The notes under the pieces were generated by a model. It searched no databases. It worked only from the letters and a program-made list of their open reading frames with translations, and was not told the origin of the DNA. Shown here one piece after another: positions 9,949-48,413 of a DNA stretch of 54,857 nt. The first letter of the stretch is position 1. Each line of letters starts with the position of its first letter. Location of the stretch: positions 1-54,857 of IMG/VR virus record IMGVR_UViG_3300048686_000254. The stretch is one strand, 5' to 3'. The DNA is from a virus. A program made the translations under genes and the position numbers.

Positions 9949-10200
9949 ATGAAATCTAAACTACTGCATCGCCCACGGGCGACTGTTAAAATACATTCTG
10001 GTGCTTCCAATCTTATTGGAAAAACTAAATTCGGTCGGGTAGGTCTAATTTCAAAACGCTACCAGGGTCAGCCTGTAAAAGAAGATGAGGTATGGCTTGT
10101 AGATGTAGTGCATGAAGGACCTAACTATTTCATTATGATCCCAACTGAAAAGCTTAAAGATGCCACCGAAACGACCCAGAATAACTCCATCTCAGACTGA
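9949..10200 (+). CDS. Hypothetical basic protein ahead of the fibre genes
   Basis: Eighty-three residues, basic at the N-terminus (KSKLLHRPRATVKIH) and beta-rich in the middle (DEVWLVDVVHEGPNYFIMI), perhaps a small SH3/KOW-like barrel. ATG 9949 is preferred over GTG 9940 because GTG lies in the arm of the palindrome. The end overlaps the first fibre gene by 41 bases in another frame. It is the first gene after the 9918 promoter box; no family recognised. Confidence 0.65.
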   Translation: MKSKLLHRPRATVKIHSGASNLIGKTKFGRVGLISKRYQGQPVKEDEVWLVDVVHEGPNYFIMIPTEKLKDATETTQNNSISD

Positions 10201-20483: not shown

Positions 20484-20741
20484 ATGGCAAAGAACGGAAT
20501 TGGTAAGGATCTTTTGAAGATTACATATCGCATTAAGCCGAAATCTGTGTCTACTCCTAAAGAAGAGGAGATGGACGAGATGGAAGAAACCGAAGAAACT
20601 GAAGGTGGAGATCCAGGCTCTATGCTACGTGAAGCTGCTGATATGATTGATCAAGGCGACGTAGAAGAAGCATATAAGATCATTGACGAAGCAGTCGCGA
20701 TGTGTAAAGAAATGCACGGCGGCGAAGAAGAGTATGACTGA
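20484..20741 (+). CDS. Small acidic protein between terminase and portal
   Basis: Eighty-five residues with a basic N-terminus (MAKNGIGKDLLKITYRIKPK) and a very acidic remainder (EEEMDEMEETEETEGG, later DQGDVEEAYKIIDEA). ATG 20484 begins one base after the terminase stop. The end overlaps the portal start by eight bases. Possibly a chaperone or scaffold for portal or terminase assembly; that is conjecture from charge and place. Confidence 0.7.
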   Translation: MAKNGIGKDLLKITYRIKPKSVSTPKEEEMDEMEETEETEGGDPGSMLREAADMIDQGDVEEAYKIIDEAVAMCKEMHGGEEEYD

Positions 20742-29653: not shown

Positions 29654-30454
29654 ATGAGTACGTGGAAAGAACTCTACGATGATCTGCTTCAGGAGCTATC
29701 GCTATATCAAGAAGAAATCAAGCTAACGCCATACCAGGGTATGCGTTACATGACCAAGGGTATGGCTGAATTTCAGCGTTTGACAAACATTGCAGAAGCA
29801 AGCAAGACACTAACGACACCTGATCCAGTAACATCCGTTACAGCTGCTTATGCAACTGGTAGCGACATACTAGAGATTGTTGAGGTCATTGACCCTGACG
29901 GATACACACTGCTTCCAGTATCATATCAGCAATACAATGAAATCATTGACCGTAGTAAAGCTGGCATGATTGGTTTCAATGAAACGCCAGCACAATTTAG
30001 CCGTGTACGCAAACGCCCAGCTATTTCTGATGAACGCTGGCAGCTTGATGAAGATCGCGGCATGGCTCGCATCTACACGATATGGGATGAGAAGCTATAT
30101 CGTTACCCAGCTGTATCTACGGATACTAGCCTGACAATGCGGTACAAGCCACACTACGACCAGTTTTCATCTGCTTCAACACAGTGGACATCATGGTGGA
30201 TTGATGAACCTACGTTTGAAACAAACTTTGCTACACTCAAGCCGCCTTCACAAATTCTCAAGTTTGCAGCAGCACTTGTTTCTTATGCAGCCGGACAGTA
30301 TCTACGCTCACAGAACGTACTTGCTGGACAGCAACCGCTCTGGCAGCAATATGATCAGGAATTTCGAGCATACATTGATCAGGCTATCCTGACGCATCCT
30401 ACGCTTGTACATGAACTGTCATCACCTTACAACATAAGCCCATATAGCAACTAA
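29654..30454 (+). CDS. Head-tail adaptor-like protein 5
   Basis: A 266-residue protein and the most diverged of the five: N-terminal helices (WKELYDDLLQELSLYQEE), a turn with SDILEIVEVIDPDG near residue 75, a strand pair around SLTMRYKPHYDQF, and C-terminal helices (ILKFAAALVSYAAGQYL) that resemble the closing helices of the others. It overlaps the large tail protein by one base, so it may be the one that contacts the tail tube or nozzle. Confidence 0.6.
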   Translation: MSTWKELYDDLLQELSLYQEEIKLTPYQGMRYMTKGMAEFQRLTNIAEASKTLTTPDPVTSVTAAYATGSDILEIVEVIDPDGYTLLPVSYQQYNEIIDRSKAGMIGFNETPAQFSRVRKRPAISDERWQLDEDRGMARIYTIWDEKLYRYPAVSTDTSLTMRYKPHYDQFSSASTQWTSWWIDEPTFETNFATLKPPSQILKFAAALVSYAAGQYLRSQNVLAGQQPLWQQYDQEFRAYIDQAILTHPTLVHELSSPYNISPYSN

Positions 30455-33400
30455 TGGAATACACAAAGACGAACATTAATGCTTTTGGTGGTTTAGATGC
30501 CAATAAGCGTCCTGAGCTTTTGCAGAATGAGCAGGCTTCAGATATAGAAAATCTCCGCTTTGATAAGCTAGGTTATCTCATTAACCGTAATGGTGTTGTT
30601 GCTAAGCCTCTCAAGATGACTAAGACGGTTGCCGTAGACGTACAGAGAGTTCTCTGGCCTATTGGAACGCTTGGTATGACAGAGTACGTACTCAAAGCTC
30701 CTTGGGGTGTAGGATCTGGGACAACAAGCTGGGCTCCATACGACGATACAACTATAGGTGGTTTATATAGTGCCTCGCCAAATACGAAGCGTTATAGTGA
30801 TAAGTTTATGGTATATCATGTGCGTATACCAGCTGCAAGCATTACGCCGCAAGGAGCATCGTCCATTGCTGAATTTGATATGTATGATCTTACGCAGGTT
30901 GATATCAACGGCAACGCACAAGCTCCAAGCAATCACTACACATGGAGGTACAAAGGTGCTTATGTCTTAATACCACTTATGGGACCCAGCGATTTCAGGG
31001 ATACATTTGCAATAGCTCCTAATGGACTCCCATATGTAGGTACTCCAGCAACTCCGGATCTTGATTACCCGTCTATGCTCGTAACTGTGGGTGCAAGATC
31101 TATCCTTCGTGCTGACGATAAACCATCGCGCACACAGATATATGCTCCACAGCGCTGGCTAGGCGTGCACAATGTATTTGAACATGAGAATATAGCTAAA
31201 GATCAAAACTGGATAGGTCACTATGTAAGTATGCACCAGTATCGTGATACTGTTGTAATCTCTGATATGACTAACCAGGATCTTCAGCTTGTCGATGAGT
31301 ATTCTGAAGCTGAATATAATGAAGAGCGGAAGCATAGATTTAGCCTTCGTGAGAATGCTCTTGCAAAGTTTGATGTAGATGATGTTGTCATTGACTTTGG
31401 TATAGGAACTAATAATTTCAATGATGGTGTCGAAGCACCAATGGCTCTATATAAATTTTATCTACCTCGTAAATCATTAGAAGTAACAGTAGATAATTTT
31501 ACATCATCATTTGACAACTTACTTAGAAGTCCAACTTCATTAGATGTTGTTGCTCCATTTCGTGACAACTGGAAACCACTCCCATATAATAGAATTGGTG
31601 CATTTTTATCGACTGAGTATTGGTATGATGTCGATGTTAATGAGCTTGGTGTATCTCTTGGACTTCAAAGTCCGTCTAAATATGCTGGATCTGGAATTGC
31701 TGTAAATACTAAAGACAAGTTTATATTTACAAATGCAGATCCAAACGAGCAATATGATTATCTATTTGGGAAGCTCACATTAAAAAATCCGGATGTAAAT
31801 CAAGATGACACTATAGCAAGTGATGTATATAGATGGAAAGAAATGACCATCAAATATTATCCATGCTCCGGAATTAGTAATGCATATGGAACATTTCTTA
31901 CTGATGAAGATAGACTTTGGGATAAAACAAGCTCGAATAGTGCTAAGGTAGTTAAGCTTAAAACAAAATCGGGAATGGAACAAAATGTTCCTCTTGGCGT
32001 ATGGCGTTATAGATTTATATGGTATTTAGGCAATGGTGAATATTCTGCTCCATCCGCAGAATTAGTGGTTCCAGATATACTTTTTAGTGGATTATCTGAA
32101 TCAGAAATGAATGAAAGCGGGATACCTTACGCACGCCCAGCTGGATTAAATACATTAGATGATGCATATAAAACCAATATAGATGTAGATGGTGTAACAT
32201 TTCTAAATGAACTTAATGGAACCGAACATTTCCAGATATTTAAGGTTAATCCAAATAATGCCAATGAACTGATTCTTACCAACTACGGTAAGAACTTTAT
32301 TAAAATTAAAGAGAAGCTGTTCTACCCTGATCATATATATGCTGCTAAGGAATCGAGCACATCTGGAGCATCTTGGCCCAATATTGATCAAGGCCAATGG
32401 ACAAGTCAAAGCTTATTAGCAAAAGGCAATGTTTCTGCTATCTGTACATTGTTTGCCAACAGCATTGATCTGACATTGAACGGCACTATATGCGAAACAG
32501 CATTTAGTACATATCAGCATACTGACGCAGATACGATAAATGAGGTCGAAGTAACATCCTACAAGTCAGGAGCAGTCTCATTAACAGTACCATTATTTCC
32601 TGCTAGTTATCAAGATTTCAATACAGAAAAAACATACTCATTTAATTCTGTATTTACCAAGCGTGGAGTTATTAGGACTGCATACCAAAATAGGCAACGC
32701 TGGAGTAGTCATCCTATGTTTAGAACGGATGTTCCAGCATACCAGATAGTTCTTGGCGGAAGATGTCTTTATGGTGTAACAAAAGTACAGTCTGACCCTG
32801 CAAACGATATTGCTGAAAAGGGTGAAAGAGTATACTTTAATGTAGTACCATTTCAGACATATCATTTCCAAAATACAGATCAACACTATGAACGTAATAA
32901 TTGGGACGACGATGGTCTGTATCCAGAATCAGGACCGAGTGCAAAGGCACGTTACAACTATCGAAATATGACACAGGTGCGTGGTGTAGATGAAGAGTCA
33001 AAGCGTATTCTCTACACTATGCCAGACGTTCCTAACGAAGTACAATCACGAATAGTTCTATCAGGATTTGGAGATATTAATCTCTGCGGATTTGATGATT
33101 ATGGAACTGTTTATCCAGAGAGAAAAAATAATACGCTTGGTGATAGTACGCTGCATAAATCAGTTGTAAGGCACTTTTGGCATGTACAAAAAGATTATTA
33201 TGGAGTTATTTATACTGACCCAGTAACTCAAAGACAGTATGATACAGAACTAACATCTCCATATTATTGGGAAGGTTTTAATGCTAATCCTGTACATTCA
33301 TATATAAGTTTTCAAACAAATGCAAATCTCCCACAGGATGATTCTTATGTCAATGGTGTTTACACACCATCAATGCATACGATACGTTTCAACAACTTGA

Positions 33401-36012
33401 AAGTTAATGTTGTTCTTCCAGGCGAAAGACTCGCAATTCCAGAACAACTTTCAATGTATGTGCCATCATCGCTTTTATTTGATGCACCGCATATTAAGAT
33501 TATCATACCTGCTAACCGCATACCGAGACGTGCGCGTCAGCTCATGATATTCCGAACTCGTGCATCGCATGATAATGCATGGCAGCCACACGACTATGGA
33601 TTCGTTAAAGCTGTAGATATTATCCGAGACAAGGATACTGGATTTCCATCAGGTAGTCATTTAGAAAAAATAGAATTTCTTGATGATGTCAAGTCTGAAG
33701 ATATGGATTTCTCTTACAATCTTAATGACTATGAAGGATTCACCGAACCTATATCATCTCGCTTCTGCCTGCCACTAAATGAGCGTGTATTCTACGCTAA
33801 CATCAAAGAGCGTTACAGACCAAAAGCTCCACGTAACTCTGTAAAGATACTTGCTAATCCAGCTGACGCAAGCCAGTTAGATCATAAGAATTTGAATGTA
33901 GGAACTAATTCAGAACTACAGAAACTTTGGTCAAACAGGCTTATATATGGAACATCGGCAACTATTAATATTGACAAGCGTTACTTGTATTACTTTATAG
34001 CATACAATGATGCTGCTAGATCATATTCGTTAGCAGCATTTTCGGGAATGATTGATCGTGGGGATTTACAGGGAAGTACTGGAAATCCTCCAGTATCGAA
34101 TGCCAATAGCAAGGTTATTCATTATTGCCTCCCATCTGCTTACGATGAATCGGTAGAGCATCTGAACATATACAGATTCCAGACAAATACACAGCTAAGT
34201 ATAGTTCCTTTTGTGGGTCGGCAGTCTCAATTTGCATACCCTTCAGCAGTAGGACAGGTTGGGTATTTCTATGTAGCACAGGGTCTAGTTGAATATAACG
34301 GCACTGTATACTATCCAAACTCAGTCATTAAGATTGAGCATGGAGGAGACACTGGTGTTCCTAGACCACCGTTTAATCCAGTTGGCATGCCCAACTATAT
34401 GAACCATTTTGTCAATTACTTTAGCCAAACAACTGCTCCATACCAACCGTTAGGCATAACTAACCGTGGAGCTATGGCAACATATTGCGCCCCAGTCATT
34501 TATGATATTACTAGCTTCTTTGATACAACGACAAATCTATCTGGATATCTAGAAAAGATTGGAGATATCGTACCTGAGAACGAAGGCATATTCTATGACG
34601 ACGACCTTCCATCTTTAGGGCGTGTTCCTCTATTGCAGTTTTTCCAGAATGAAGATATAATGCCAGCTGGATTACGTTGGAGCGAACCATATCAGCCGAA
34701 TAAGATTAAACTTGGTAGTCTGATGGAGGTACGCTCAGGTGACGGTGATCAGATTACAGCTATGGCACAGCTTTACGGAAACCTTGTGATTCTCAAAGAA
34801 CGCAGTATGCATAGGCTGGCTGTACAGGGTGCAAATGTACCTATCTCCCGTGTAGACGAAATCTCGAATAATGTAGGATGTATTGCGCCAAATACAGCCA
34901 TTACAGTTGACAACACACTTTACTTCTTATCATGGGCTGGATTCTATAAGTACGATAACAACGTACTTTCAAAGATAGATGGTGCGTTTGCTGAGGAACT
35001 TCAGGTCAGGTTGCGTTCTAATATTAACGGCGTAATGAATCCAGCAATCAGAGATGCGTCGTGCGGCTGGAATCCTACTTACCGTGAGATATACCTGAAT
35101 ATTCCAGTAATGTCTACTACGAACTCGGAAGATGCTTATGAGGTGACAGGGGTAACTGGCGCTCAAGGTGTAACCCTAATGGATAACGCAGGTGAACGTA
35201 CAGTCCGTGGTATGGTTTACGCTATCAATATCGATACAGGATTCGTGACTAAGCATAGGTACATGGATGATGCCTTGTACTTTACTGATCCATCAGGCAT
35301 AATTCCGACTGTTAAGTTTCCTGAACTCGCACTGTTACTTGGTAATGCACCAACACAGCGTGCTCCTAGGGTAGCTTCGCGTCTGTACTATACTAACACG
35401 CTAGGTCAGATGCGCTCAGCTGAGTGCCTTCCACCTAGGACATACAACTACAATATTGGATTTAGACCGTATCCGGCACAAGCCAGTATCTCGTACTTGC
35501 AAACCAGCTTCTATATTGAATCTCCTACAAAGGAACTCAATATCAGCTTTGATAAGTATAAGGATGATCTATTCCTATATAATCAGAACCAAGCAGGTGT
35601 ATGGTTTAACGATATTCAATATAGGAATGTCCGTGTGTTCTGGCAGTCAAAGAGCTTTACTGGCGATGATAAAACAATCCTTAAGCGTGTGCGCAAGGTG
35701 TTCAGTTATATATCTGCTAATATCCAACCAGCTGTCGTGCGTGGCATTGTACACACTAGTCCTGGCGGTGGTAAGAATGTATCGGATATTACATGGGAAT
35801 ACCAGTACTTCATTTCCGACCCTCTAAATCCAGGGTACGGTCAGTCAGCTACGGGCGAGCTTAGTGCTATACCGACAGAAGCAGCGGGATCGTCGAGCTC
35901 AGCCAGCCAGAATCGTGGTGAGCGTCATCTATTCCAAGTAGAAGGTGGCGGATCATTCCAGATGGAGTACTTCGGATTCTACTGGAAGCCTGTAAATACA
36001 TATCAGAGGTAA
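30454..36012 (+). CDS. Very large tail protein, nozzle/propeller type
   Basis: An 1,852-residue protein. The N-terminus (FGGLDANKRPELLQNEQASD, then a 'LRFDKLGYLINRNG' strand) is the classic opening of phage tail-stabilisation or nozzle proteins. Near residues 1,424-1,510 a propeller blade follows the same family: DGDQITAMAQLYGNLVILKE, then CIAPNTAITVDNTLYFLSWAGFY. Between them lie about 1,000 residues of beta-rich sequence without recognised motifs; the usual family member is 500-800 residues, so the insertion is large. The C-terminus is Ser/Gly-rich. It probably forms the short tail tube under the adaptors. Beta-rich Tyr/Asn composition is even throughout, with no sign of a frameshift. Confidence 0.75.
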   Translation: MEYTKTNINAFGGLDANKRPELLQNEQASDIENLRFDKLGYLINRNGVVAKPLKMTKTVAVDVQRVLWPIGTLGMTEYVLKAPWGVGSGTTSWAPYDDTTIGGLYSASPNTKRYSDKFMVYHVRIPAASITPQGASSIAEFDMYDLTQVDINGNAQAPSNHYTWRYKGAYVLIPLMGPSDFRDTFAIAPNGLPYVGTPATPDLDYPSMLVTVGARSILRADDKPSRTQIYAPQRWLGVHNVFEHENIAKDQNWIGHYVSMHQYRDTVVISDMTNQDLQLVDEYSEAEYNEERKHRFSLRENALAKFDVDDVVIDFGIGTNNFNDGVEAPMALYKFYLPRKSLEVTVDNFTSSFDNLLRSPTSLDVVAPFRDNWKPLPYNRIGAFLSTEYWYDVDVNELGVSLGLQSPSKYAGSGIAVNTKDKFIFTNADPNEQYDYLFGKLTLKNPDVNQDDTIASDVYRWKEMTIKYYPCSGISNAYGTFLTDEDRLWDKTSSNSAKVVKLKTKSGMEQNVPLGVWRYRFIWYLGNGEYSAPSAELVVPDILFSGLSESEMNESGIPYARPAGLNTLDDAYKTNIDVDGVTFLNELNGTEHFQIFKVNPNNANELILTNYGKNFIKIKEKLFYPDHIYAAKESSTSGASWPNIDQGQWTSQSLLAKGNVSAICTLFANSIDLTLNGTICETAFSTYQHTDADTINEVEVTSYKSGAVSLTVPLFPASYQDFNTEKTYSFNSVFTKRGVIRTAYQNRQRWSSHPMFRTDVPAYQIVLGGRCLYGVTKVQSDPANDIAEKGERVYFNVVPFQTYHFQNTDQHYERNNWDDDGLYPESGPSAKARYNYRNMTQVRGVDEESKRILYTMPDVPNEVQSRIVLSGFGDINLCGFDDYGTVYPERKNNTLGDSTLHKSVVRHFWHVQKDYYGVIYTDPVTQRQYDTELTSPYYWEGFNANPVHSYISFQTNANLPQDDSYVNGVYTPSMHTIRFNNLKVNVVLPGERLAIPEQLSMYVPSSLLFDAPHIKIIIPANRIPRRARQLMIFRTRASHDNAWQPHDYGFVKAVDIIRDKDTGFPSGSHLEKIEFLDDVKSEDMDFSYNLNDYEGFTEPISSRFCLPLNERVFYANIKERYRPKAPRNSVKILANPADASQLDHKNLNVGTNSELQKLWSNRLIYGTSATINIDKRYLYYFIAYNDAARSYSLAAFSGMIDRGDLQGSTGNPPVSNANSKVIHYCLPSAYDESVEHLNIYRFQTNTQLSIVPFVGRQSQFAYPSAVGQVGYFYVAQGLVEYNGTVYYPNSVIKIEHGGDTGVPRPPFNPVGMPNYMNHFVNYFSQTTAPYQPLGITNRGAMATYCAPVIYDITSFFDTTTNLSGYLEKIGDIVPENEGIFYDDDLPSLGRVPLLQFFQNEDIMPAGLRWSEPYQPNKIKLGSLMEVRSGDGDQITAMAQLYGNLVILKERSMHRLAVQGANVPISRVDEISNNVGCIAPNTAITVDNTLYFLSWAGFYKYDNNVLSKIDGAFAEELQVRLRSNINGVMNPAIRDASCGWNPTYREIYLNIPVMSTTNSEDAYEVTGVTGAQGVTLMDNAGERTVRGMVYAINIDTGFVTKHRYMDDALYFTDPSGIIPTVKFPELALLLGNAPTQRAPRVASRLYYTNTLGQMRSAECLPPRTYNYNIGFRPYPAQASISYLQTSFYIESPTKELNISFDKYKDDLFLYNQNQAGVWFNDIQYRNVRVFWQSKSFTGDDKTILKRVRKVFSYISANIQPAVVRGIVHTSPGGGKNVSDITWEYQYFISDPLNPGYGQSATGELSAIPTEAAGSSSSASQNRGERHLFQVEGGGSFQMEYFGFYWKPVNTYQR

Positions 36013-36432: not shown

Positions 36433-36440
36433 TATTTTGC
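36433..36440 (+). promoter_or_regulatory. Possible promoter before internal virion genes
   Basis: TATTTTGC fits the TAnnTTGC variant seen in the two minus-strand promoters. A TTTG lies 15 bases upstream, shorter than the usual 19-21. It is in the 68-base gap before ATG 36464. Confidence 0.3.
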
Positions 36441-36463
36441 CGCCTAAAGATTGGAGCATTAAA

Positions 36464-39400
36464 ATGGCTTATGGTCAAGATATTGTGATGGGCTTAATGC
36501 CTAGAAGCAATAATCGGTTCGGCAACCAATACGGCGGAATGATAGACTGGAACAGCATCATTCCAGGATACGAACAGTCTACAGAAGATATGGGGCAGTA
36601 CACAAATCAACCTGCCTCATACCAGTCGTTCGGGTCTATGCCTCCACCTCCTATCCCTGGTATGCCTCGTCAGCAGATGGCGTTCTCGCCACAGACAGCT
36701 ACGCCAGTGGTATCTCCTAAGACGGCACAGGCTCAACCTCAAACTCAAGAGGCTGCACCTGTCGAGCAAGAGGGTGAAGACATCGGCGACTGGAAGCCTG
36801 GCAGTCCATTCAACATACCAGATAAGAAGTGGCGTGTACTATCCTTCCAGCCTGGAGCTTCGGCAGTTGTCGAAAGGCCGGGATTAGGCCAAGTGACATA
36901 CACTCCAGGGCAGAATGCATACAACGCCGTTGAGCAGCGTTACTCGCAGCTCAGATCGCAATACGATTCCCAGATGCAGCAGCGTGCACAAGAAGGACAG
37001 GGGCAGCCAGCTATTCCGGAACAGTATACGATGGCGTTCAATACTCCTGCCAATGAGACAATGTTTGGTAGGTATGACCCTGAGCGCAAGGCTATGATGG
37101 TGCTTACCCCTGACGGCGATGAGGTACAGTACAATGGCTGGTCTGACATCCCAGAGGATAAGATCACGTTCAGGCAGGACCCTACTACGGGAATGCCTAT
37201 GCGCTCTCAGTATGACGAGCTTAAGCAGACTGTTGGCAATGTCATTGCAGAGCCAGTATCCAACCTTACGAATTACATGACGGGTGGATACAAGTCAGCT
37301 CCAACCAAGTCGGCGATGTATGATAACCTCAAGGTTCAAATCAGCGGCGGCGAAGGCAATAATGCTCCAGAGTTCAAGTTCTTCTGGGGTGGCGAAGGTC
37401 CAGCTCCAGCAGGACTGGTAGAGAACGCGCAAAAGAATCTCGATGAGATGATGGAGCAGGTTGACAGCTATGCTACTGAGTACGACAGAGTAGTAAACAG
37501 CAAGGCCCCAGGAATTATTGACCAAGCAGTAGCCGGATACGACTCTGAGATTGCAGATTTGAATGCTAAGGCAAGCGCCGCTAGGCAGAAGGTTGGCACT
37601 GCAACTGGAAAAGATAAAACGGCAGCACAGAAGGAACTCGACAAAGCGGAGAGACGTCTTAAGACAGTCAGCAACATACGCAACAATATCAAGAACAATC
37701 GTGTTCTTGGTGTCGAAGGTGGTGTTATTGTTGAAGGAACTCCTGATGCATACCTAAGCTCCGTCAATCCTAAGACGTGGCAGGGCAAGTTGGCTTTGGC
37801 TTCTGGACTCGGATACACGGTCCCGACTCAGGCAGGGGCGGAGCCACGCGGCGTTTTGAGTAGCCAGGACTTTGCAGAGATTGCCATGGCTCAGGCAGTA
37901 AATGACACAGAAGTTACCCCTATGGGTATAGACAAGGGTAGACTGACGTCTATACTTTCTCCTACGGTAGAACGCCTCAAAATGATTAATGATGCTGGCA
38001 AGGAGGAATATGGTTCCAACTGGAACAATATCGCATCTCAGCAGCCAGCTACGTTTACATACACCGACGTCTATGGAAACCAGCGTACGGTTCAGAAGCC
38101 TATTGGTACTGCTATAAACGACCTTAATGCAAGCATGAAAGACGTCTGGGATGCCGTAGCATCTGGAGACAGGGCTAAGTATGCAGAAGCTGCTGAACGT
38201 CTTCGTAGATCCGGTGAGCTATTCTCTGGATCAATCACGCCTCCTGGTGGACTAGAGACAATTCTGCCGACAAAGAAAGAAGTCGGCATGAATAACCTAG
38301 GCTCGGTCATCTCTAACGTAAGCGAATACAACGCACTTATTCCAGGTAGACTACAATTCGGATCTATTGCAAGGACGGATCAGCCACCTCGCTGGATCTA
38401 TCAGCCTGACCCAGCCGTCCGTGGTAGAGGTAGTGATAAGGAAAAGCGCAGTACTTCCGCCCTACCGTGGATTAACTTCGGAGCAAAGGGAGGCGTTCAC
38501 CAGACGCAGCCTTTGATGTCATTGCTTGGAACTCCTGATTATTATCCGCAGACTGCTGCCAAGTATTCACCGGGAACGGCTCTTAACTCATCTAAAGAAA
38601 CTATTGGCTCAACACTCTTGATGGCTTCTGGAGATGTAGGAAGTCCAGAGAATGTAGAGGCTTTGTCTGGAATCATCAATGATGTAAATACTGAGTTCAC
38701 AAAACCAGAGGCGGGCGACCTGCGTAAGGGCATGGCTAGGACAGTCCAGAAAGAGTTTGCAGACCTTGGATTTAGATTCACTTCACCAGATGAATTTTCA
38801 AACGACCTAGAGAACGTATACAAAACTGGCGACGCCAATAGCTTTATTAGAAAGTACTGGGGTGACAAGGCCGTAGGTGGAAACCCTACATCGACAATCG
38901 GTAAAGCAGCAGTACAAAACCATAACGCAACAGGACTAGGTGTAGCGCTTAGAGGAAGACCGGATGAGACAGGACTAAAAGTTACACAAGATGCTAAATT
39001 CAAATCAAGTCAAGCAAACAGTGCGCTGATAGAAGCGGCAGGTAACAAGCTGCAGGATATAGCATACTTGTATGCGAACCTAGGCGGAAGGGGCGGAGCT
39101 GGTGAAAGATGGTCAGGCCACACAGTTCAGGATAATGCCGGAGGACGTCCACGCGCTACGATTGTGCCGTTTGTAAATCCTTGGGCTAGTGATGCAGGCC
39201 AGCAGATGAGCCCACTGACTGCAATGTCTGCGACCAACATGACGGAAGCCGCACCACTAACCACTAGCAACGACCAAATCCAAGCTCTTCTCAAGGGAGA
39301 CACGGCTAATGTAGGCACTGACTACGATCCTGCGGGATCGCTTGCAATGTTTAACATTGGTGGATACAATGCTGACTGGGTGTACAAGTATCTTTCATCA

Positions 39401-39634
39401 AGCCCGACAGGAAGAAGAATTATCGACCGGATGACTCAACTTGCTAGAACGTCACATGCGTCTGTTAATGGTGATCTACGTAGCAAGGTTCCATCTAGAC
39501 CGCAAGATGATGAGAGGACAAGCTTTGACAGCACAACACTACAAAGCATTCAGTCTGGATTCTTCGATGCTCTGACGCTAGGAAGCGTCTTCCCGCAACT
39601 TCGTGTATTTGCTAGACCATATAACAAAAGGTAA
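36464..39634 (+). CDS. Large internal virion protein candidate
   Basis: A 1,056-residue protein, unrecognised as a family. The N-terminal 120 residues are Pro/Gln-rich and probably disordered (SMPPPPIPGMPRQQMAFSP and following). Around residues 325-415 is a predicted coiled coil (IDQAVAGYDSEIADLNAKAS, then ELDKAERRLKTVSN). The rest is mixed and rich in Gly, Asn and Ser. Its size, place between tail protein and the 2,924-residue gene, and lack of enzyme motifs suggest a protein ejected with the DNA. ATG 36464 has the site TTGGAG; the upstream TTG 36437 is rejected. Confidence 0.6.
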   Translation: MAYGQDIVMGLMPRSNNRFGNQYGGMIDWNSIIPGYEQSTEDMGQYTNQPASYQSFGSMPPPPIPGMPRQQMAFSPQTATPVVSPKTAQAQPQTQEAAPVEQEGEDIGDWKPGSPFNIPDKKWRVLSFQPGASAVVERPGLGQVTYTPGQNAYNAVEQRYSQLRSQYDSQMQQRAQEGQGQPAIPEQYTMAFNTPANETMFGRYDPERKAMMVLTPDGDEVQYNGWSDIPEDKITFRQDPTTGMPMRSQYDELKQTVGNVIAEPVSNLTNYMTGGYKSAPTKSAMYDNLKVQISGGEGNNAPEFKFFWGGEGPAPAGLVENAQKNLDEMMEQVDSYATEYDRVVNSKAPGIIDQAVAGYDSEIADLNAKASAARQKVGTATGKDKTAAQKELDKAERRLKTVSNIRNNIKNNRVLGVEGGVIVEGTPDAYLSSVNPKTWQGKLALASGLGYTVPTQAGAEPRGVLSSQDFAEIAMAQAVNDTEVTPMGIDKGRLTSILSPTVERLKMINDAGKEEYGSNWNNIASQQPATFTYTDVYGNQRTVQKPIGTAINDLNASMKDVWDAVASGDRAKYAEAAERLRRSGELFSGSITPPGGLETILPTKKEVGMNNLGSVISNVSEYNALIPGRLQFGSIARTDQPPRWIYQPDPAVRGRGSDKEKRSTSALPWINFGAKGGVHQTQPLMSLLGTPDYYPQTAAKYSPGTALNSSKETIGSTLLMASGDVGSPENVEALSGIINDVNTEFTKPEAGDLRKGMARTVQKEFADLGFRFTSPDEFSNDLENVYKTGDANSFIRKYWGDKAVGGNPTSTIGKAAVQNHNATGLGVALRGRPDETGLKVTQDAKFKSSQANSALIEAAGNKLQDIAYLYANLGGRGGAGERWSGHTVQDNAGGRPRATIVPFVNPWASDAGQQMSPLTAMSATNMTEAAPLTTSNDQIQALLKGDTANVGTDYDPAGSLAMFNIGGYNADWVYKYLSSSPTGRRIIDRMTQLARTSHASVNGDLRSKVPSRPQDDERTSFDSTTLQSIQSGFFDALTLGSVFPQLRVFARPYNKR

Positions 39635-39638
39635 TTAA

Positions 39639-42600
39639 ATGGCTGCGGACAACAACAGCATTTTTAATCAGCCATTGGCCATGCCTATGTTTGGTCAATC
39701 CGATGCAAATCGAATACCAGCTGATAGTGACTTCTGGTATCTATGGGCGGGGCAGGATCAAGCACGAGCTAAATATCTTAAGCTCAAGCAAATGCCTACA
39801 ATGATTACTCCCGAAGAGTACGATAAGATTGTAGGTCCGCAGCAACCTGTGACTACTGTTGAAGATCAGCTGAACGCTATTCCTCAGCAGCGCAGTTCAG
39901 ATGAAACACTTGGCGAAAGATTTGCAGGAGGTGTCAGTGGTTTGTTTGACACGTTCGAGCGTTCTGCTGCTGCCTTCGCTGCCAATCCACAGGGCAATGC
40001 ACTCTCTCCATTCTTTGAATCTCCGGAGCAACAGCAGCGTAAGCGTGCGGATGCACAGCGAATACTAGAGCAGATGCGAGCACCTGCTTCGCAGAGGACT
40101 GGAACTCCTTCATGGATACAGACTGCTGAAGATTTTGGTAGGGGACTTGTAACAAGCGTTCCACAAACTGTAGCAAGCCTGGGTGGAGCTGGACTAGATT
40201 TAGTTACTGGCAACCTTGGTGAGAACCAAGATTACACTATCCGTGCAAACCAAGCACAACAATACTATACTCCAGATGGCGCAGCTAAGACAGTAGGATC
40301 GCTCGTTCCAGATATAGGCGCAGCACTCCTGTCGTTTGGTGGAACCACAGCTCTATCCGCAGCAGCGGCAGCAAGCAAAGCCCCAGTAATCGGTACTATT
40401 GGAAAATTGCTTGTAGGAACTGGAGAATCAGTAGCACCTAAGATACTAGGAAAGACACTATCATTCCTGCCATCAGCAACCCGTGCTCAGCGCGTAGGAG
40501 CTGCAGCAGGATCACTGTTAGTGCAGAACAAGTACGATCTTCCTGAGCTTGTATCAGGCCGTATGAATGTAGGTGAGTATGCCCTTCGTCAGGCAGCTGG
40601 TGCTGCTGGTGGAGCTCTCGCAGCAGGATCATACCAGAACAACTTCCTTAAGAATGTCTTTGCCGACGCAGCTGTTAATGCAGCTACAGGCGCTGTGGCT
40701 GAAGCCGCACCTCTTATCCCAGGCGGTGCTGAGTTTGACGCAAGCCAAGCATGGAAGTCACTGGTAGGCCAAGTGGTTATAGGCACAGGTATCGGAACTT
40801 ACGCAGCCTATGCCGACGCACGTCAAGCAGCGGCAGCCAGAACAGCGCAAGCAGACGTAGCGGCTCGCCAGCAGGCAGCTATTCAAGAGCAGGCTGCTCG
40901 TGCCGAAGGAGGATCAACAGCTAACGAACCATATACGGCAGCAACAACATACCGTCAGGCCGAGGAGATACTGTTCGGTCGCACGGCTATTGACCGTGAC
41001 GATGATGTAAACACGGCGTATGAAAAGTACGCAAGCGCGACTGACGAGGTAGACGTGAACCGTCTTCAATCTATCCGACGCACGCCAGATGGAACGGTAA
41101 TGTCTATCAATGACGCCTATACAGGCAACAACACCGACATGCTGCCGAAGGGATTCGGTCCTGCCGCACTAGCACAGGCAGCCGAGACCGAGCGTACTGC
41201 GTATGCTAAGGCATTGGTAGCGCAGTTCAAGGGTAACGAGCAGGAGCTCGCGCAGCTGCTAGACCTCGGACCTATAGATGATGTCACTCAACTTGAAAAC
41301 ACAATCGTCAACAAGTGGCTTGTTCAGGCTGCCAATGGACGAGGCATCAATGGAGTAGAACAGAAGCTCGCAGAAGCTGGACTTCCTTCTCCATTGATTG
41401 CTTCAGCTGGAGCGGAAGCACCTCAGACATTCATGCAGGGTGCTGACTTTGAGTCTGGACTCAGGCCAGAGCAGGCAGGAGACGTAGAGCAACCTGACTT
41501 ATCTTCTGTAATTCGTGGAGCTGAACGGCAATTTGGTTACCTAGGACGGCCTATACGCATTTCAGAAGAGGGACCTGTTCGTGTAGAAGGAGAAGATGAA
41601 GGACGCCCTCTTACAGAAAAACAGACTGACCGCGAGTATGGAAGATACAAGCGTGCAAAGTCGAGAGAGATGCTGGCAGCTGAACGGAAGTATGGAATTA
41701 CTCCAGAAGAGTTCAGCGATCCAGAAGTTAGGAAGGCTCTGGTTCAAATCGAAGAAGCCGAGGCTCTTGCTAATAGCTTGTACGGAATAGAGAATGGTCT
41801 AACTGTAAGCAGCATACTTCCTCCTAATTCAGTAGCGGCTAGGATATATCAGTCTGCCAATCCGCAGGCTCGACCTGAGTCAACACCAGGGCAACGTGCT
41901 ATACCTGTAGCAGAAACACCAACTGTACTTGAAGTTCCGACGGCAGCTCTCGAAGAAGGTCTAACTACCACGGCACAGCCGGAAGTATACCGACTTGAAG
42001 ATTACCAGAATGTAGTCCCGGCAGATCAAGCTATCGCCGGAGAGACGGCCCCGACTGTAGAGACTCCAGAAGCACCAAAGCAAGTGGAGTCGCTTAACGA
42101 GATAAACCAGATACAATCCGACGAACAGGCGCAAGCAGAGCAGCAGCAGGCAGCTATTGCAGACCGAGACATTCAGTCTGCCGACGAAGCAGAAGATCGA
42201 GTGCTGGCGGCATTAGAGACTCGCGGAATAAACACAGATAAGGTAATTACAGTAGTTCCTTCTGAGCCTGTGCTTGGTCCTATACTTAAGATTGGCTCTG
42301 GTGTAGCTAGGTCTCTAGACGACATGCGTTCTATTTCTGAGAAGGCAGGCGCTAAAGTTTCTACAGACAACAAGGTTCGACAGGCTAAAGAGAATGTGGT
42401 ACGACTAGCTAACCTTCTAGAAGGTAACATAGATCGTGGAGTAAAAGGTCAAGGAGTATTATTCCCTGATCCTAAAGCTGGCGGTCAGCGTGACTTCATG
42501 GTTAGGTTTATTGCTGACGTAGAAGATGCAAGCCAGTATGAAATCCTCAAGCGTGTTGAAGCTGGTGAGAGATCTTTTGGTAACGGCGCTATCAAGCTGT

Positions 42601-45600
42601 TCGGCGGAGAGTCTGGTGATAGAATGTTTACTATCAGATTCGACGTTAGCAGCGATAACATGGCGCACGTACGCGATGTCATGAATCGTGTGAGCCCTAG
42701 CGCTGTTGAGGTTAAGGTCAAGTCGGATGCGGCAGAGCTAATGAATAATGACCGTAGGGCTGACATACTCGATAAAGCATACGCTGACTTCGAGGAGGCT
42801 ATGGCTGCTTCATCAGAAGCTCCGAGAGTATATGGAGGCAGGCTCGTATATACTTCGACGCAAGCTAGGATGGAAGGCATTCCTGCCGAGCATCCATCAG
42901 AAGCATATAAGGCAGATAGCGCAACAGGTCAGCAAGCCATTAATGGATTCGGCGTCCAAGATCTTGTTGGGCGTGACGAATGGGGAAGATACTATCCTGA
43001 AAAACTAAACAAGGCTCAGGATACGATAGCAAAAGATTTGCAGAATGACTTAAAGAATAACCTTGTTTCAAAGAACCCACAGCTACTTGCGCAAATTCGG
43101 TATCAGGATATTCCCTGGCTACTGAATAAGTACTATGGTCCTGGATACTGGAAAGATTTCGCAGCTAACTACGTTAAGAACCAAGGTATAGCTAAAGAAG
43201 TAGATGATGCTTTTTTAGCTCACATTCACAGGAAGTACGGCCTTGGGTATGCTGGAGAAAAGTTTGATTTTAAAGGTAGGAAAATTCCATACAATCCAGT
43301 CAAAGATTTCGCAGATCATAACACCAACGTCCCTGACTACGTAACCGATTACGGATACAAGCAATACCTTCCGGTGTTTACGGAGACGCTTGATCTAGCA
43401 GGATTGATTGCGCGTAAGTCAGGCATCGACGCGGCTCAAAAGATTACGGCACTAGCTGAATGGGATGCAACTGGTTACGATAAGTTTGATGAGAAGACGG
43501 GCGCAGTCACTAAGACATCTAAGGAACGTCGCACAGAGCTACAGGAAAAGTGGAGACGTGCCGACCCAACCCTCGCAGGTATCACCGAGGCCGACATCGA
43601 GGCAACACGTAAGCAGCTACAGAAGGCACTCAAAAAGAATGCAGAAGTAAATGCCGCATATCAGAAGGTGCAAGAGTGGGCTAACAAGGAGCAGGGTGCT
43701 GAGGCATACCGGACTCTTATGCAGGCAGCAGTTATGGGTACGAGCAAGGACGTTAAGTTTAACTTGCGCGACTTCCCTATCACTCGCGTATTTGGAAGTG
43801 TCGGAGCTGCTATTCTGCTTGACCAAGGCGTAGATACAATCGAGGATGATGAAACATACTTCGGCATTCCTGGTAGTGTTATCAAAGAAATGTTCGGCGG
43901 CGGTAAGGCAGTCGGCTACGCGACATTGGCTGGATTCCATGTAACTTCAAAGGCAAATACGCCAGCAGGAACAAAGGCAGGTTTCCGCAGTCGTTCGCTT
44001 GATGCTATCCGCAAGTCTAAGCTTGGACGGGTTGTAAGTGAGAAGACTGGTGCTGACTACGTAGACTTTAGTAAGCTTACACCTGACCAGCAACTCAATC
44101 AGTTTGAGTCCTGGTTCTTTGATCCGGCTAGACCATTCAGCGCAGCAGAGCGTGGCTCAGCTGTATATGAAAAAGAGAAGACAGCATACTACCAGTTCCA
44201 CAAAGATGCTTCGGCAAGTGGTGTTAAGCTTGCCAACATTCTTGGCATTACCAAGCTTGTATCAGGTAAGGGATCTCAGGGTGTTGTTACGTATACCGAA
44301 GCTGGTATCAACGATACAAAGCTGATGTCTGCCAAGATACCGCTTGTTGATGACTTCATTCGCAAGCCAGACACAGAAGTGCAGCGTGCTACCCGTGAGC
44401 GCATCAATGAAGTTCAGGGTCCACTCGATGAGCTCTGGCCTCAGATACGTGAGCGCTACAAAAAAACAGCAATGTATCAATTCGTACATTCAGCTGTTGA
44501 ACTAGACAAGCGTATGTCGGACCTAAATCTTGTACGATCAAAGAAGAGCGAGGAAGTATATCTTGTAGAGCGTGAACAGATCATACAAAGTATTAAGGAT
44601 GAGTTCTTCAATCCACAGTCAGATAAGAACCTATCAGGTTTTGGCGATGAGCAGTGGAATGATTTCCTCGCATTCCAGCGTGCACTTGATCCTCTTCGTG
44701 GATTGCATTACGAAAGCATCGTAGCTCGTTCGATTGGTCAAGAGTTCTGGAAGATGAACGAATACTACACTGACCTGCTCAGCACAAGAGATCCAATTCT
44801 TAAGGGTCTCGGCGCAGCTGCTGCTAAAATGGATGACCTTGACTTCCAGATCAAAGCTCTCGATGATGCAAAGAATGCTGGAACTGACATGCCTAACTAT
44901 GTTGATAAGCGTAAGTCGCTGATAGATAGTAAGGCAGAGTTGCAGCAGTTTGTAGATATGCAGGCTAAGGAACTGGAGATGCTCAATAACAAGATCAAAG
45001 TTATTGAACAGCTTCCAGAGAATGTAGAGCGTTCACGTTCTAGCTTCTACCTTTTCCGCCACCGTGACCAGAACGCTCCGTTCGTATTGCGTCTACAGTT
45101 TGATGAGACGACGAAGCTTCCAGCTGGAACGCGCATGGAGTACAACACAGAAGCTGATGCACGAGAAGGAATGTTCAAGGAGCTACGTGAAAGAATACCG
45201 GAAGGTGCGTACGCTCGCCGCCAATACTTGAACGATGAAATAGAGAGACTCTCTACAAAAGAAAAGCTTACACAGCGTGAAGCTGCTACTCTTGAGAAGT
45301 TGGAGAAAGAAATAGAATACATTGATGGCGTTCAGGACCTATCGAATCTTTCCGACGCAGAGCTGATGCAGTTTATCAGCAACGTGAAGATTCTCAAGAG
45401 ACCTGGAGACAAGCGCATCTTGCGTTCTAACCGACTGGTTGCAACGCAGTCTACAACCAGGAAGGTTCTTGAGGCTGCTTTGTATGGAGCACATACAATC
45501 AAAGCGAACCTTGCATCTCGTGCTAATGCAGAAGGGGCTATGACTCCACGCTACATTGACGGCAAGGGTAACGCTACACTGCAACGAGACTTAAGTGGCA

Positions 45601-48413
45601 ATGTTGTAGCATACAAGGATTCCGATTACTTCGATATAGATCAGCTCGTCGATAGCATTGACGATATGGTAGATGAGCCGATAGACCGTGCGCAGCTCAA
45701 GGATTATGTCGAGAAGTATCTGACATTCCGCGACACAGAGCAGGTTGACGGGAAGACTATCAAGAAGATCTACGTTGACATGTCAGGTCTCAAGATGCTT
45801 GCCGAGCAGTACCTTATGCCAACTCACCCGAACCTTATCAATAGGTACAACTGGGATGGATACTGGGACCCGCAAGGAAAGTGGACTGGCGACGATGCAG
45901 CTAAGTGGATGGAAGACTCTATTAACTCCATGCGCCGCGACATCGTTGCAGGCACACAGTTGACTGTAGCCCGTAAGAATGTACAGCGTCTGCGTAGCGA
46001 GGTTAATAAGTACGAAGTCAACAATGGACTGCGTGAATATCTAGACAAACTGCAAGAACAATTTGATCCAGCCTTCGCACAGATGGCTGAGACAATGAAG
46101 ATTGCGCGAGCTATAAGCAGGACATACTCAATAGGTACATTGCTCTGGAGTATACCTAACTGGGCAATGAACCGTGTATACGGTATGACTATGCCTGGAT
46201 ACCATTACGCCATGAACATTATGACTGACTACGGTGTAGCCAAGATAAATGACGAAGGCAACTACGGTCCGATGCAGCGCATGTCTAGTAAGGCAGAAGC
46301 AGACGCATTCGTATACGAAAAGCAGATGGCGGGCGAGTCTGGCTGGCGTGTACGCAAGGACGTTCGCATGAGAAACTTTGGTCCGCGTGCTTTCGGCATA
46401 ACGCTTGGTGCTGTAATAGCACCTGAAACTACACTGAGGACACTAGCTAAATTCGACGAGAGATATGCAGATGTCCTGCGCATAGCAGATGAGCTTAAGC
46501 TTACACAGGGTAGCGTTATGGGTAGCTATGCCATGCGAGAAGGTATTGCGACAGGCAAAGTATCTGAGGAACTTGTTAAGATTGCAACTGCAATGGGCAA
46601 CCACGTTGAGAAAGTCAACAACTACTCATCTATCCTGACTTCGGCATCATCATCATTCCATCGCCTAGGCATCAGCCGGAACGACTGGTCTATGATGAAG
46701 CGTGGTGATAAGACAGAGGCTGTCAAGATTGCAATGATTCCGCACGAGAAAAAGATTCGTGCTGGATACCGTGCCGCATTTGAAATGGACACGAAGATTC
46801 AATCGTTGAAAGATCAGATAGAAGAACTCGAAGCATCTAATGAGCCGAACGCAAACCTAAAAGTACAAAAGCTCAAGCGCCAATTAGACTCTCTAGTATA
46901 CAGGCGTCTGAAGGTTGCAACGCCAGAACGCGCACTATTCGACCAGCTTGCAGAGTACATGGCTTACGACCGTGATCTTGAGCAGGGTTCCTGGGACCGT
47001 GTTTCTAAGTCTGTATTCGAGCGCTACATAGAAAATCAACCGCTCGGTATTATAGGTATGACCATGATGGCTCCGGCTGTGCGAAATATGAATGCGCACA
47101 GGGTGCTATTCTTGGAAGCAGCCGAGATGTCCAAGGGTGCTACAGGAAAGATGCAGATGCGTAAGCTCATGCAGGCTTATGCTCCAGTCATAGTGGGTTC
47201 GGCTGTCGTTACTGCGCTTGCAGGTATGTATGCAGTTCCTGCATTCCTAGGTGCTGTGCCCGTCATGGATGTTGTCAATGCACTTGAGTTTGTGTACGAA
47301 GCATTCATGGAAGAGGATGAGGACAAGCTTACAAAGATGTCGCAGCGTCAGCGCTGGGAAGAACTCGGTGGAGAAATCGCAGCGAAGAACGGATACAATC
47401 GTGAGTCAGGCAAGGAATTTGTACGCACGTATTTTACCGAAGGTATGATTCGTACATTTGGTGACATCAATGCAAGTGAAGGTGGTTCTCTAGCATCATT
47501 GATTGAAGGACAGGGATTGTCCATGTTGCTCAAGCAATCAAGTAGAATAACAAAGGGAACTGTTCAGGTATTTTCAGATATAGCTACTGGAAACTTTGCA
47601 AATGTTCCATACCAGATGACAGAGTTACTGCCTTCCGGTTACAGGCGTATCAGTCAGGCATCGGGCCAGCTTATGCTAGGTCAGAAGCTCGACAAGGATG
47701 GCAACATCATCATTGACCCTAATACTGGACGCGCTCAATCGTATTCAATGACCGATGCAGCGCTTCAAGCATTGACAGGAAAGCCATGGAAGGAAACACG
47801 TAGCGTTATTACTAGCATCGAGCGCGGCGTCCCGCTCTACTCTGAACAGGATAAGCAGGCATGGGCAAACACACTGGTCAGTCTCAGCAATGTTAAGTTC
47901 GGTGAAACCATTAGAAGCAAGAAGCCAGGCGTACGCGAAGTAGTATCATCCGTTGCTATTGCAGAAGCAGCACCGCAGCTACAATACATCATACGCCAGC
48001 GTTACGAGAACCTATACAAGGCCGCAGTCGAATCTGGCAAGGATAGGTTCAATGAAGAGTGGAGTAAGAATCCAACTATCCAGTTGTCTGGTGGAAAGAC
48101 TATGACGCTGCAAGAAATCTACGCGACTGTAGCGCAGGATGGCGGTATCAAATCGCAGTACGAACTTAAAGGAAAGGGTGCTGAAAGCGTAAAGGAAATG
48201 TCGATGAAGCTCATGGATGAATGGGCTCGTACAAGATCTGTAGCTGAATCAGTTACTCTATACTTTGGTGGTGAAATCCCGGTTCAGTACACCAATGAAA
48301 TCTTTGCAACGACTACCAGCCCAGAGCAGTATGCTGCTGTGAAGATCTTGCAGAAGTTCTACAATTCATACGCAACAGGCGAAGCATACAGAGGATACAA
48401 GCAATCACGATAG
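39639..48413 (+). CDS. Giant internal virion (ejection) protein, 2,924 aa
   Basis: One uninterrupted 8.8-kb frame, 16% of the window. Order of parts: a short helical start; residues about 160-420 a long Ala/Gly-rich hydrophobic region that could form membrane channel helices; about 430-840 charged and Gln/Glu-rich; 840-1,750 mixed helical; near 1,800 a segment FYLFRHRDQNAPFVLRLQ that resembles a degenerate PLxRFG motif of phage polyvalent proteins; and near 2,515-2,550 a hydrophobic, Pro-containing pair (VVTALAGMYAVPAFLGAVP). PLxRFG and such hydrophobic segments mark proteins injected with DNA. No polymerase, lysozyme or nuclease motif was found, so it is not shown to be an N4-type virion RNA polymerase. 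Confidence 0.75.
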   Translation: MAADNNSIFNQPLAMPMFGQSDANRIPADSDFWYLWAGQDQARAKYLKLKQMPTMITPEEYDKIVGPQQPVTTVEDQLNAIPQQRSSDETLGERFAGGVSGLFDTFERSAAAFAANPQGNALSPFFESPEQQQRKRADAQRILEQMRAPASQRTGTPSWIQTAEDFGRGLVTSVPQTVASLGGAGLDLVTGNLGENQDYTIRANQAQQYYTPDGAAKTVGSLVPDIGAALLSFGGTTALSAAAAASKAPVIGTIGKLLVGTGESVAPKILGKTLSFLPSATRAQRVGAAAGSLLVQNKYDLPELVSGRMNVGEYALRQAAGAAGGALAAGSYQNNFLKNVFADAAVNAATGAVAEAAPLIPGGAEFDASQAWKSLVGQVVIGTGIGTYAAYADARQAAAARTAQADVAARQQAAIQEQAARAEGGSTANEPYTAATTYRQAEEILFGRTAIDRDDDVNTAYEKYASATDEVDVNRLQSIRRTPDGTVMSINDAYTGNNTDMLPKGFGPAALAQAAETERTAYAKALVAQFKGNEQELAQLLDLGPIDDVTQLENTIVNKWLVQAANGRGINGVEQKLAEAGLPSPLIASAGAEAPQTFMQGADFESGLRPEQAGDVEQPDLSSVIRGAERQFGYLGRPIRISEEGPVRVEGEDEGRPLTEKQTDREYGRYKRAKSREMLAAERKYGITPEEFSDPEVRKALVQIEEAEALANSLYGIENGLTVSSILPPNSVAARIYQSANPQARPESTPGQRAIPVAETPTVLEVPTAALEEGLTTTAQPEVYRLEDYQNVVPADQAIAGETAPTVETPEAPKQVESLNEINQIQSDEQAQAEQQQAAIADRDIQSADEAEDRVLAALETRGINTDKVITVVPSEPVLGPILKIGSGVARSLDDMRSISEKAGAKVSTDNKVRQAKENVVRLANLLEGNIDRGVKGQGVLFPDPKAGGQRDFMVRFIADVEDASQYEILKRVEAGERSFGNGAIKLFGGESGDRMFTIRFDVSSDNMAHVRDVMNRVSPSAVEVKVKSDAAELMNNDRRADILDKAYADFEEAMAASSEAPRVYGGRLVYTSTQARMEGIPAEHPSEAYKADSATGQQAINGFGVQDLVGRDEWGRYYPEKLNKAQDTIAKDLQNDLKNNLVSKNPQLLAQIRYQDIPWLLNKYYGPGYWKDFAANYVKNQGIAKEVDDAFLAHIHRKYGLGYAGEKFDFKGRKIPYNPVKDFADHNTNVPDYVTDYGYKQYLPVFTETLDLAGLIARKSGIDAAQKITALAEWDATGYDKFDEKTGAVTKTSKERRTELQEKWRRADPTLAGITEADIEATRKQLQKALKKNAEVNAAYQKVQEWANKEQGAEAYRTLMQAAVMGTSKDVKFNLRDFPITRVFGSVGAAILLDQGVDTIEDDETYFGIPGSVIKEMFGGGKAVGYATLAGFHVTSKANTPAGTKAGFRSRSLDAIRKSKLGRVVSEKTGADYVDFSKLTPDQQLNQFESWFFDPARPFSAAERGSAVYEKEKTAYYQFHKDASASGVKLANILGITKLVSGKGSQGVVTYTEAGINDTKLMSAKIPLVDDFIRKPDTEVQRATRERINEVQGPLDELWPQIRERYKKTAMYQFVHSAVELDKRMSDLNLVRSKKSEEVYLVEREQIIQSIKDEFFNPQSDKNLSGFGDEQWNDFLAFQRALDPLRGLHYESIVARSIGQEFWKMNEYYTDLLSTRDPILKGLGAAAAKMDDLDFQIKALDDAKNAGTDMPNYVDKRKSLIDSKAELQQFVDMQAKELEMLNNKIKVIEQLPENVERSRSSFYLFRHRDQNAPFVLRLQFDETTKLPAGTRMEYNTEADAREGMFKELRERIPEGAYARRQYLNDEIERLSTKEKLTQREAATLEKLEKEIEYIDGVQDLSNLSDAELMQFISNVKILKRPGDKRILRSNRLVATQSTTRKVLEAALYGAHTIKANLASRANAEGAMTPRYIDGKGNATLQRDLSGNVVAYKDSDYFDIDQLVDSIDDMVDEPIDRAQLKDYVEKYLTFRDTEQVDGKTIKKIYVDMSGLKMLAEQYLMPTHPNLINRYNWDGYWDPQGKWTGDDAAKWMEDSINSMRRDIVAGTQLTVARKNVQRLRSEVNKYEVNNGLREYLDKLQEQFDPAFAQMAETMKIARAISRTYSIGTLLWSIPNWAMNRVYGMTMPGYHYAMNIMTDYGVAKINDEGNYGPMQRMSSKAEADAFVYEKQMAGESGWRVRKDVRMRNFGPRAFGITLGAVIAPETTLRTLAKFDERYADVLRIADELKLTQGSVMGSYAMREGIATGKVSEELVKIATAMGNHVEKVNNYSSILTSASSSFHRLGISRNDWSMMKRGDKTEAVKIAMIPHEKKIRAGYRAAFEMDTKIQSLKDQIEELEASNEPNANLKVQKLKRQLDSLVYRRLKVATPERALFDQLAEYMAYDRDLEQGSWDRVSKSVFERYIENQPLGIIGMTMMAPAVRNMNAHRVLFLEAAEMSKGATGKMQMRKLMQAYAPVIVGSAVVTALAGMYAVPAFLGAVPVMDVVNALEFVYEAFMEEDEDKLTKMSQRQRWEELGGEIAAKNGYNRESGKEFVRTYFTEGMIRTFGDINASEGGSLASLIEGQGLSMLLKQSSRITKGTVQVFSDIATGNFANVPYQMTELLPSGYRRISQASGQLMLGQKLDKDGNIIIDPNTGRAQSYSMTDAALQALTGKPWKETRSVITSIERGVPLYSEQDKQAWANTLVSLSNVKFGETIRSKKPGVREVVSSVAIAEAAPQLQYIIRQRYENLYKAAVESGKDRFNEEWSKNPTIQLSGGKTMTLQEIYATVAQDGGIKSQYELKGKGAESVKEMSMKLMDEWARTRSVAESVTLYFGGEIPVQYTNEIFATTTSPEQYAAVKILQKFYNSYATGEAYRGYKQSR

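Follow-up and report, generated by a model that had tools for sequence, protein, structure and literature searches.

A putative giant ejection protein of a temperate podovirus and its probable remote homology to DarB-like PLxRFG/tail-700 proteins

In podoviruses, giant ejection proteins can account for as much as a fifth of the phage genome. For comparison we used the giant PLxRFG or DarB-like proteins of Lastavirus, Skulduggeryvirus, Pavtokvirus, Parlovirus, Bcep22-like and F116/H66-like podoviruses, referred to as tail-700 proteins after NF032893 ('tail-700'), a C-terminal NCBIfam model of 681 positions named for PLxRFG. Purified virions yielded 51 unique peptides of JC1 gp69 (PMC9144972), and the H66 protein record carries the remark 'verified by mass spectrometry'. 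In T7 gp16, two putative membrane regions are located in the N-terminal part and near the C-terminus, and charged residues at the C-terminus matter for infectivity (PMC8954989). A solved relative of the C-terminal domain of giant ejection proteins was searched for and none was found.

The DNA analysed here (the window) is an entire IMG/VR record of 54,857 nucleotides. It encodes, in this order, a terminase, a portal, a major capsid protein, a SU10-adaptor-like adaptor, a nozzle-like protein, a protein of 1,065 aa, a protein of 2,924 aa (P0001) and an integrase, and additionally a primase/helicase and a RecE-like exonuclease. The genes on which the argument rests are:

20683..22713, + strand: portal protein (phrog_156, E = 1.5e-65), which places the phage among P22-portal-type podoviruses
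30454..36012, + strand: nozzle-like virion protein of 1,852 aa (phrog_3287, virion structural, E = 1e-11 over 81 residues)
36437..39634, + strand: upstream ORF of 1,065 aa with a TTG start, found at the same place in all relatives
39639..48413, + strand: P0001, a probable giant ejection (internal virion) protein of 2,924 aa, encoded by an uninterrupted ATG ORF of 2,924 codons
49313..50290, - strand: integrase (phrog_1, E = 9.5e-21), just beyond the ejection gene

The ORF of 2,924 residues at 39639-48413 (+), as called in the initial annotation, was confirmed to be unbroken from its ATG and closes the virion operon. Among annotated phages, the portals most similar to that of the window belong to podoviruses, including Lastavirus, Skulduggeryvirus, Pavtokvirus and Parlovirus, in which the final virion gene encodes a protein of 3,695-4,914 aa named PLxRFG or DarB-like; NF032893 was found at the C-terminus of both such proteins scanned against NCBIfam. 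The 1,852-aa protein, separated from the 1,065-aa ORF by an ORF of 126 aa, has an N-terminal sequence that appears typical of nozzle proteins. It far exceeds the 440-490-aa nozzle/stabilisation proteins of the smaller podoviruses compared, and an MlaA hint at its residues 167-192 (E = 0.015) was below the cut-off. The 1,065-aa ORF, which gave no family match in Pfam, PHROGs or NCBIfam, is probably a second ejection protein.

Several other ORFs of the window were recorded in passing. The last 9 bases of the giant gene are shared with a 303-aa ORF of unrecognised family on the opposite strand (48405-49316, - strand). A 535-aa protein encoded on the same strand as the integrase and away from the tail genes (50663-52270, - strand) contains trimeric-adhesin-like GG..N.ASG repeats (Pfam LbR_Ice_bind, E 5e-7; UspA1_rep, E 0.009). 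Between the replication and packaging genes (10160-14712, + strand) lie two large unmatched ORFs of 594 and 922 aa, the former with a weak trimeric-autotransporter Trp_ring hint (E 0.0014).

Ordinary searches with P0001 gave no match in Pfam, PHROGs or NCBIfam, none by tblastn in 50,697 phage genomes and 72,556 plasmids, and none among PDB sequences. Residues 600-1430 were unmatched in the searches, and for the N-terminal half no homologue was found among known ejection proteins. No family members came from two scans of bacterial and archaeal genomes or from the plasmid search. IMG/VR was scanned with portal, terminase and giant-protein patterns, and three further members were obtained:

P0002: IMG/VR relative of P0001, 2,781 aa
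P0005: IMG/VR relative of P0001, 3,438 aa (L022:9923-20239)
P0006: IMG/VR relative of P0001, at least 1,999 aa, truncated where the contig ends (L021:9920-15916)

The tail part of the window's gene order recurs in the records of these relatives, whose terminase or portal is 78-84% identical to that of the window and whose giant protein is only about 30% identical. In the comparison with the P0002 record, identity was 84% for terminase and capsid, 78% for the portal, 50% for the nozzle-like protein (50-53% across the relatives) and 29-31% for the giant protein. The 1,065-aa ORF is about 20% identical to its counterpart in the P0006 record, which makes the two nearly unalignable, and had no match at E<=1e-5 in the P0002 record. 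Judged from the 84% identity of terminase and capsid against these low values for the giant protein and its neighbour, the ejection block diverges much faster than the head genes.

Remote homology was assessed by profile-profile comparison with hhalign, using 17 tail-700 proteins and the C-termini of P0001, P0002 and P0005. Two segments were matched:

45810..46283, + strand: first tail-700-like segment, residues ~2058-2215 (score 31.3-31.6, E ~0.002; shuffles at most 22.7)
46962..47777, + strand: second tail-700-like segment, residues ~2442-2713 (score 31.3-34.4, E ~0.002-0.003; shuffles at most 24.7)

The whole C-terminus scored 39.6 against tail-700 (E 0.0019), with 80 shuffles reaching at most 30.7 and reversed profiles 19.5. 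When both sides were divided, the first part of tail-700 gave 31.6 with residues ~1952-2302 (highest shuffle 22.7), and the second gave 34.4 with residues ~2272-2924 (highest shuffle 24.7); with the halves crossed, so that each faced the wrong half of tail-700, the scores were 18.7-20.7. In a depth-matched matrix of 18 windows along P0001 and three profiles built from similar sequence sets, residues 1921-2271 scored 31.3 against the first part and residues 2401-2751 scored 31.3 against the second, and only these two windows and their overlapping neighbours exceeded 21, each in the right half and in the right order.

Taken singly, each match is weak (hhalign probability ~15%, E ~0.002), as only three to four family sequences exist. 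A first profile comparison with thin alignments gave no match, and with a five-sequence Lastavirus-type template alone the tail-700 signal was lost in a background where unrelated slices of the template proteins scored up to 29.6. The NF032893 HMM found nothing at E<=1 in P0001 and P0002, missing its curated cut-off of 100 bits, and nothing at E<=10 in three virus records; HMMER with an alignment of the tail-700 proteins also found nothing. LPD38 (PF18857) was not found in the virus records, a weak answer given that the control matched nowhere either. The AlphaFold2 model of residues 1745-2924 had a pLDDT of 39, so it was not used for a fold search. On the strength of collinearity and specificity, and not of any one E-value, we consider C-terminal homology of P0001 to tail-700, in two segments spanning ~650 residues, to be probable; since the signal vanishes with a thin template, remote homology to the tail-700 domain body is graded as moderate, not certain.

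The register of these matches bears on the PLxRFG motif, for which the following features are relevant:

44754..45011, + strand: predicted long antiparallel helical hairpin, residues 1706-1791 (AlphaFold2, pLDDT mostly ~80-95)
45045..45101, + strand: conserved FYLFRHRDQNAPFVLRLQF block, residues 1803-1821, not PLxRFG (RHRD and PFVLRL invariant in four members)
45537..45626, + strand: PLxRFG-equivalent position, TPRYIDGKGNATLQRDLSGNVVAYKD, residues 1967-1996 (extrapolated by collinearity; motif not conserved)

The segment FYLFRHRDQNAPFVLRLQ (FYLFRHRD), which begins at residue 1803, had been taken for PLxRFG-like. This is not a chance string: it belongs to a block that ranks among the family's best conserved, with RHRD and PFVLRL invariant in 4/4 members and with 52% identity over residues 1801-1850 to a relative that is 31% identical overall. 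Against the PLxRFG region it scored 12.4, with shuffles reaching 18.0, and its identification as PLxRFG was rejected on these controls. A register drawn by eye, with FYLFRHRD placed on PLxRFG and 'IRRGTA' of the relatives on 'IHRKGTAG', looked attractive, but the profile scores were against it. The link to PLxRFG proteins thus held for the family, through the C-terminal ~900 residues, but not for the motif, FYLFRHRD being a separate block upstream.

From residue 2058 onward, P0001 aligns with the domain located downstream of PLxRFG in other phages; the first matched column near 2058, 'YLMPTHPNLINR', faces 'YLxxxPdxSxRK' of tail-700, where PLxRFG is located ~95 residues further upstream. Extrapolated from this register, the PLxRFG equivalent falls near 'TPRYIDGKGNATL' at 1967-1981, reads TPRYIDGKGN and lies ~160 residues downstream of FYLFRHRD. 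The TPRYIDGKGNATLQRDLSGNVVAYKD stretch alone was not significant against the PLxRFG profile, to which FYLFRHRD had no match, and the PLxRFG motif is absent from P0001. This pattern suggests that the motif is dispensable while the domain body and the hydrophobic hairpin persist. In an AlphaFold2 model of a 236-aa segment (residues 1690-1925, four sequences), FYLFRHRD follows the helical hairpin, and the strands around it are of low confidence (pLDDT ~40-55). Foldseek with this model gave no match at E<=0.001 to viral or solved structures, the hits being mostly generic long helices.

Two regions of P0001 are hydrophobic to different degrees:

40119..40814, + strand: Ala/Gly-rich, mildly hydrophobic N-terminal region, residues 161-392 (from composition and conservation)
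47181..47309, + strand: C-terminal hydrophobic hairpin, residues 2515-2557, then acidic EEDED (strongest hydrophobic segment)

The initial annotation had described residues 160-420 as Ala/Gly-rich and hydrophobic. The composition is real, with 35% A+G in residues 161-420 versus 19% in the whole of P0001, but the region is only mildly hydrophobic (Kyte-Doolittle mean 0.17, with five 19-mers at 1.0-1.43). In conservation it ranks with the best stretches of the family. Profile comparison with N-terminal sequences from two sets of giant ejection proteins remained at background; similar A/G-rich regions can be seen by eye in H66-like proteins, with no profile match. The hydrophobic pair noted at 2,515-2,550 comprises one strong segment in a conserved position and a weaker second one. 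The former, residues 2522-2540, has the highest Kyte-Doolittle value of P0001 (1.87) and has counterparts in P0002 and P0005, both relatives that reach that far, and in six tail-700 phage proteins; the latter and the acidic EEDED stretch come next. The pair as a whole (2515-2557) falls at tail-700's own hydrophobic segment. A TolQ hint at residues 2510-2560 (E = 0.042) was below the cut-off. Hydrophobic, potentially membrane-inserting regions, a trait of ejection proteins, are present in P0001 (2522-2540 and the milder N-terminal region) and conserved in its relatives. The C-termini of the three full-length family members are basic, with net charges of +2, +6 and +5 in the last 15 residues.

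Like T7 gp16, P0001 would be the largest and last ejection protein, and it has one hydrophobic region in its N-terminal part and another near the C-terminus (layout of gp16 as in PMC8954989); the basic C-termini of the three full-length members enter into the same comparison. Unlike T7 gp16, to which no sequence match was found in the PDB search, P0001 is more than twice as long and has no recognised N-terminal peptidoglycan-hydrolase domain. The hydrophobic layout and the basic C-termini support, but do not show, a role of P0001 in an inner-membrane conduit, and a channel function is plausible by analogy.

P0001 also resembles the tail-700 and DarB-like proteins: it is likewise the last gene of the virion block and several thousand residues long, has two collinear C-terminal profile matches and carries a strong hydrophobic segment a few hundred residues before the C-terminus. 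Unlike them, it has no HMMER-level match, no conserved PLxRFG motif and no recognised methylase-helicase or transglycosylase domain, and its C-terminal domain comprises ~970 residues compared with 681 in tail-700. Tail-700 proteins are packaged in the virion in the members tested. The designation as an ejection protein in the initial annotation is supported by the gene position and by C-terminal homology to the tail-700 domain of virion-packaged podovirus proteins. Given its place at the end of the virion operon and its collinear C-terminal matches to tail-700, P0001 is likely to be the largest of the internal virion (ejection) proteins in a temperate podovirus of the P22-portal type and to be related, at great evolutionary distance, to the DarB-like PLxRFG/tail-700 proteins.

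A four-way alignment of the family revealed one site of strongly differing length:

42519..42857, + strand: variable slot, residues ~961-1073, nearly empty in P0001

The slot contains ~8 aa in P0002, ~50 in P0001, ~145 in P0006 and ~564 in P0005. The insert of P0005 (residues ~938-1502) consists of two mobile phage domains. The first, with the signature 'HDYFGH...QTRGQNSW' (phrog_3170, E 2e-13), is also present in a Planktothrix phage 'large polyvalent protein'; the second (phrog_2563, E 6e-15) is acetyltransferase-like and kin to phage acetyltransferases, and occurs also as standalone genes and in part of the Microbacterium phage minor capsid proteins. At the same site, P0006 has a different insert of ~145 aa (residues ~938-1083, 'TYFVIRGETAV...LGYDAVRLVDAQGNASAMYVVNPKKM'), which by eye appeared ART-like and for which Pfam, PHROGs and phage genomes gave no match. 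As in phage polyvalent proteins (Iyer et al. 2017, PMC5512222), the relatives of P0001 thus carry exchangeable domains, in a central slot, that also occur in other phage proteins; unlike polyvalent proteins, which combine several distinct effector domains in one polypeptide, P0001 has no recognised domain in its slot, and P0005 shows this trait in part.

Alternatively, P0001 might act mainly as a polyvalent effector that brings enzymes against host defences along in the particle, with the DNA conduit as a secondary role. Tail-700-class relatives do carry methylase-helicase and transglycosylase regions (PMC6606913; PMC5512222), and both slot domains of P0005 recur in unrelated phage proteins, but no enzymatic domain was recognised in P0001 in Pfam, PHROGs and NCBIfam searches. 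The small slots of P0001 and P0002, lacking a recognised enzyme, therefore point to a scaffold kept without cargo, and we regard a chiefly effector role as unlikely. Hidden effector activities, as the initial annotation had envisaged, find a counterpart in the variable slot and the mobile domains of P0005, but not in the ~50 slot residues of P0001, which hold no enzyme-like domain; since P0001 keeps the scaffold with almost no insert, the description fits its relatives rather than P0001 itself, unless residues 600-1430 hide something novel.

Virion mass spectrometry of the relatives does not separate proteins retained in the head from ejected ones, and would be compatible with a large protein of structure or assembly that remains in the particle. 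The conserved hydrophobic segments and the location at the end of a nozzle/ejection block, as for T7/P22-like ejection genes, argue against a retained protein, as does the lack of any capsid, fibre or tape-measure family match in Pfam and PHROGs, and this explanation appears quite improbable. N4-like virion RNA polymerases resemble P0001 in size and gene position. No tool result favours such an identity, and with no virion RNA polymerase family match in Pfam, PHROGs, NCBIfam or PDB it is highly improbable. The matches that the initial annotation had named as contradicting its proposal, to a fibre or a virion RNA polymerase, were looked for in these searches and not found.

For the giant ejection protein that we favour, we infer that it is packaged, ejected, inserted into the membrane and able to deliver cargo, and presence in the virion is proposed by analogy with the literature on relatives. 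P0001 would be packed in the head, threaded out via portal and nozzle at infection, ahead of the DNA, and would enter the host inner membrane by the Ala/Gly-rich region of its N-terminal part and the hydrophobic hairpin near its C-terminus; together with its 1,065-aa neighbour it may form the genome conduit. Through the slot near residue 1000, some family members may carry extra domains into the cell. Tentatively, the family might represent an ejection scaffold into which domains are plugged at a dedicated site around residue 1000, and in which one conduit with whole domains exchanged delivers different cytoplasmic effectors to different hosts. It is conceivable, with similar reserve, that the delivery protein stays collinear within a phage group while some members, such as P0001, run almost empty.

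With the homology graded as above, the P0001 family would link an otherwise unmatched metagenomic lineage to the giant podovirus ejection proteins, and its series of empty to full slots on one scaffold offers a natural way to separate DNA delivery from what is co-delivered.
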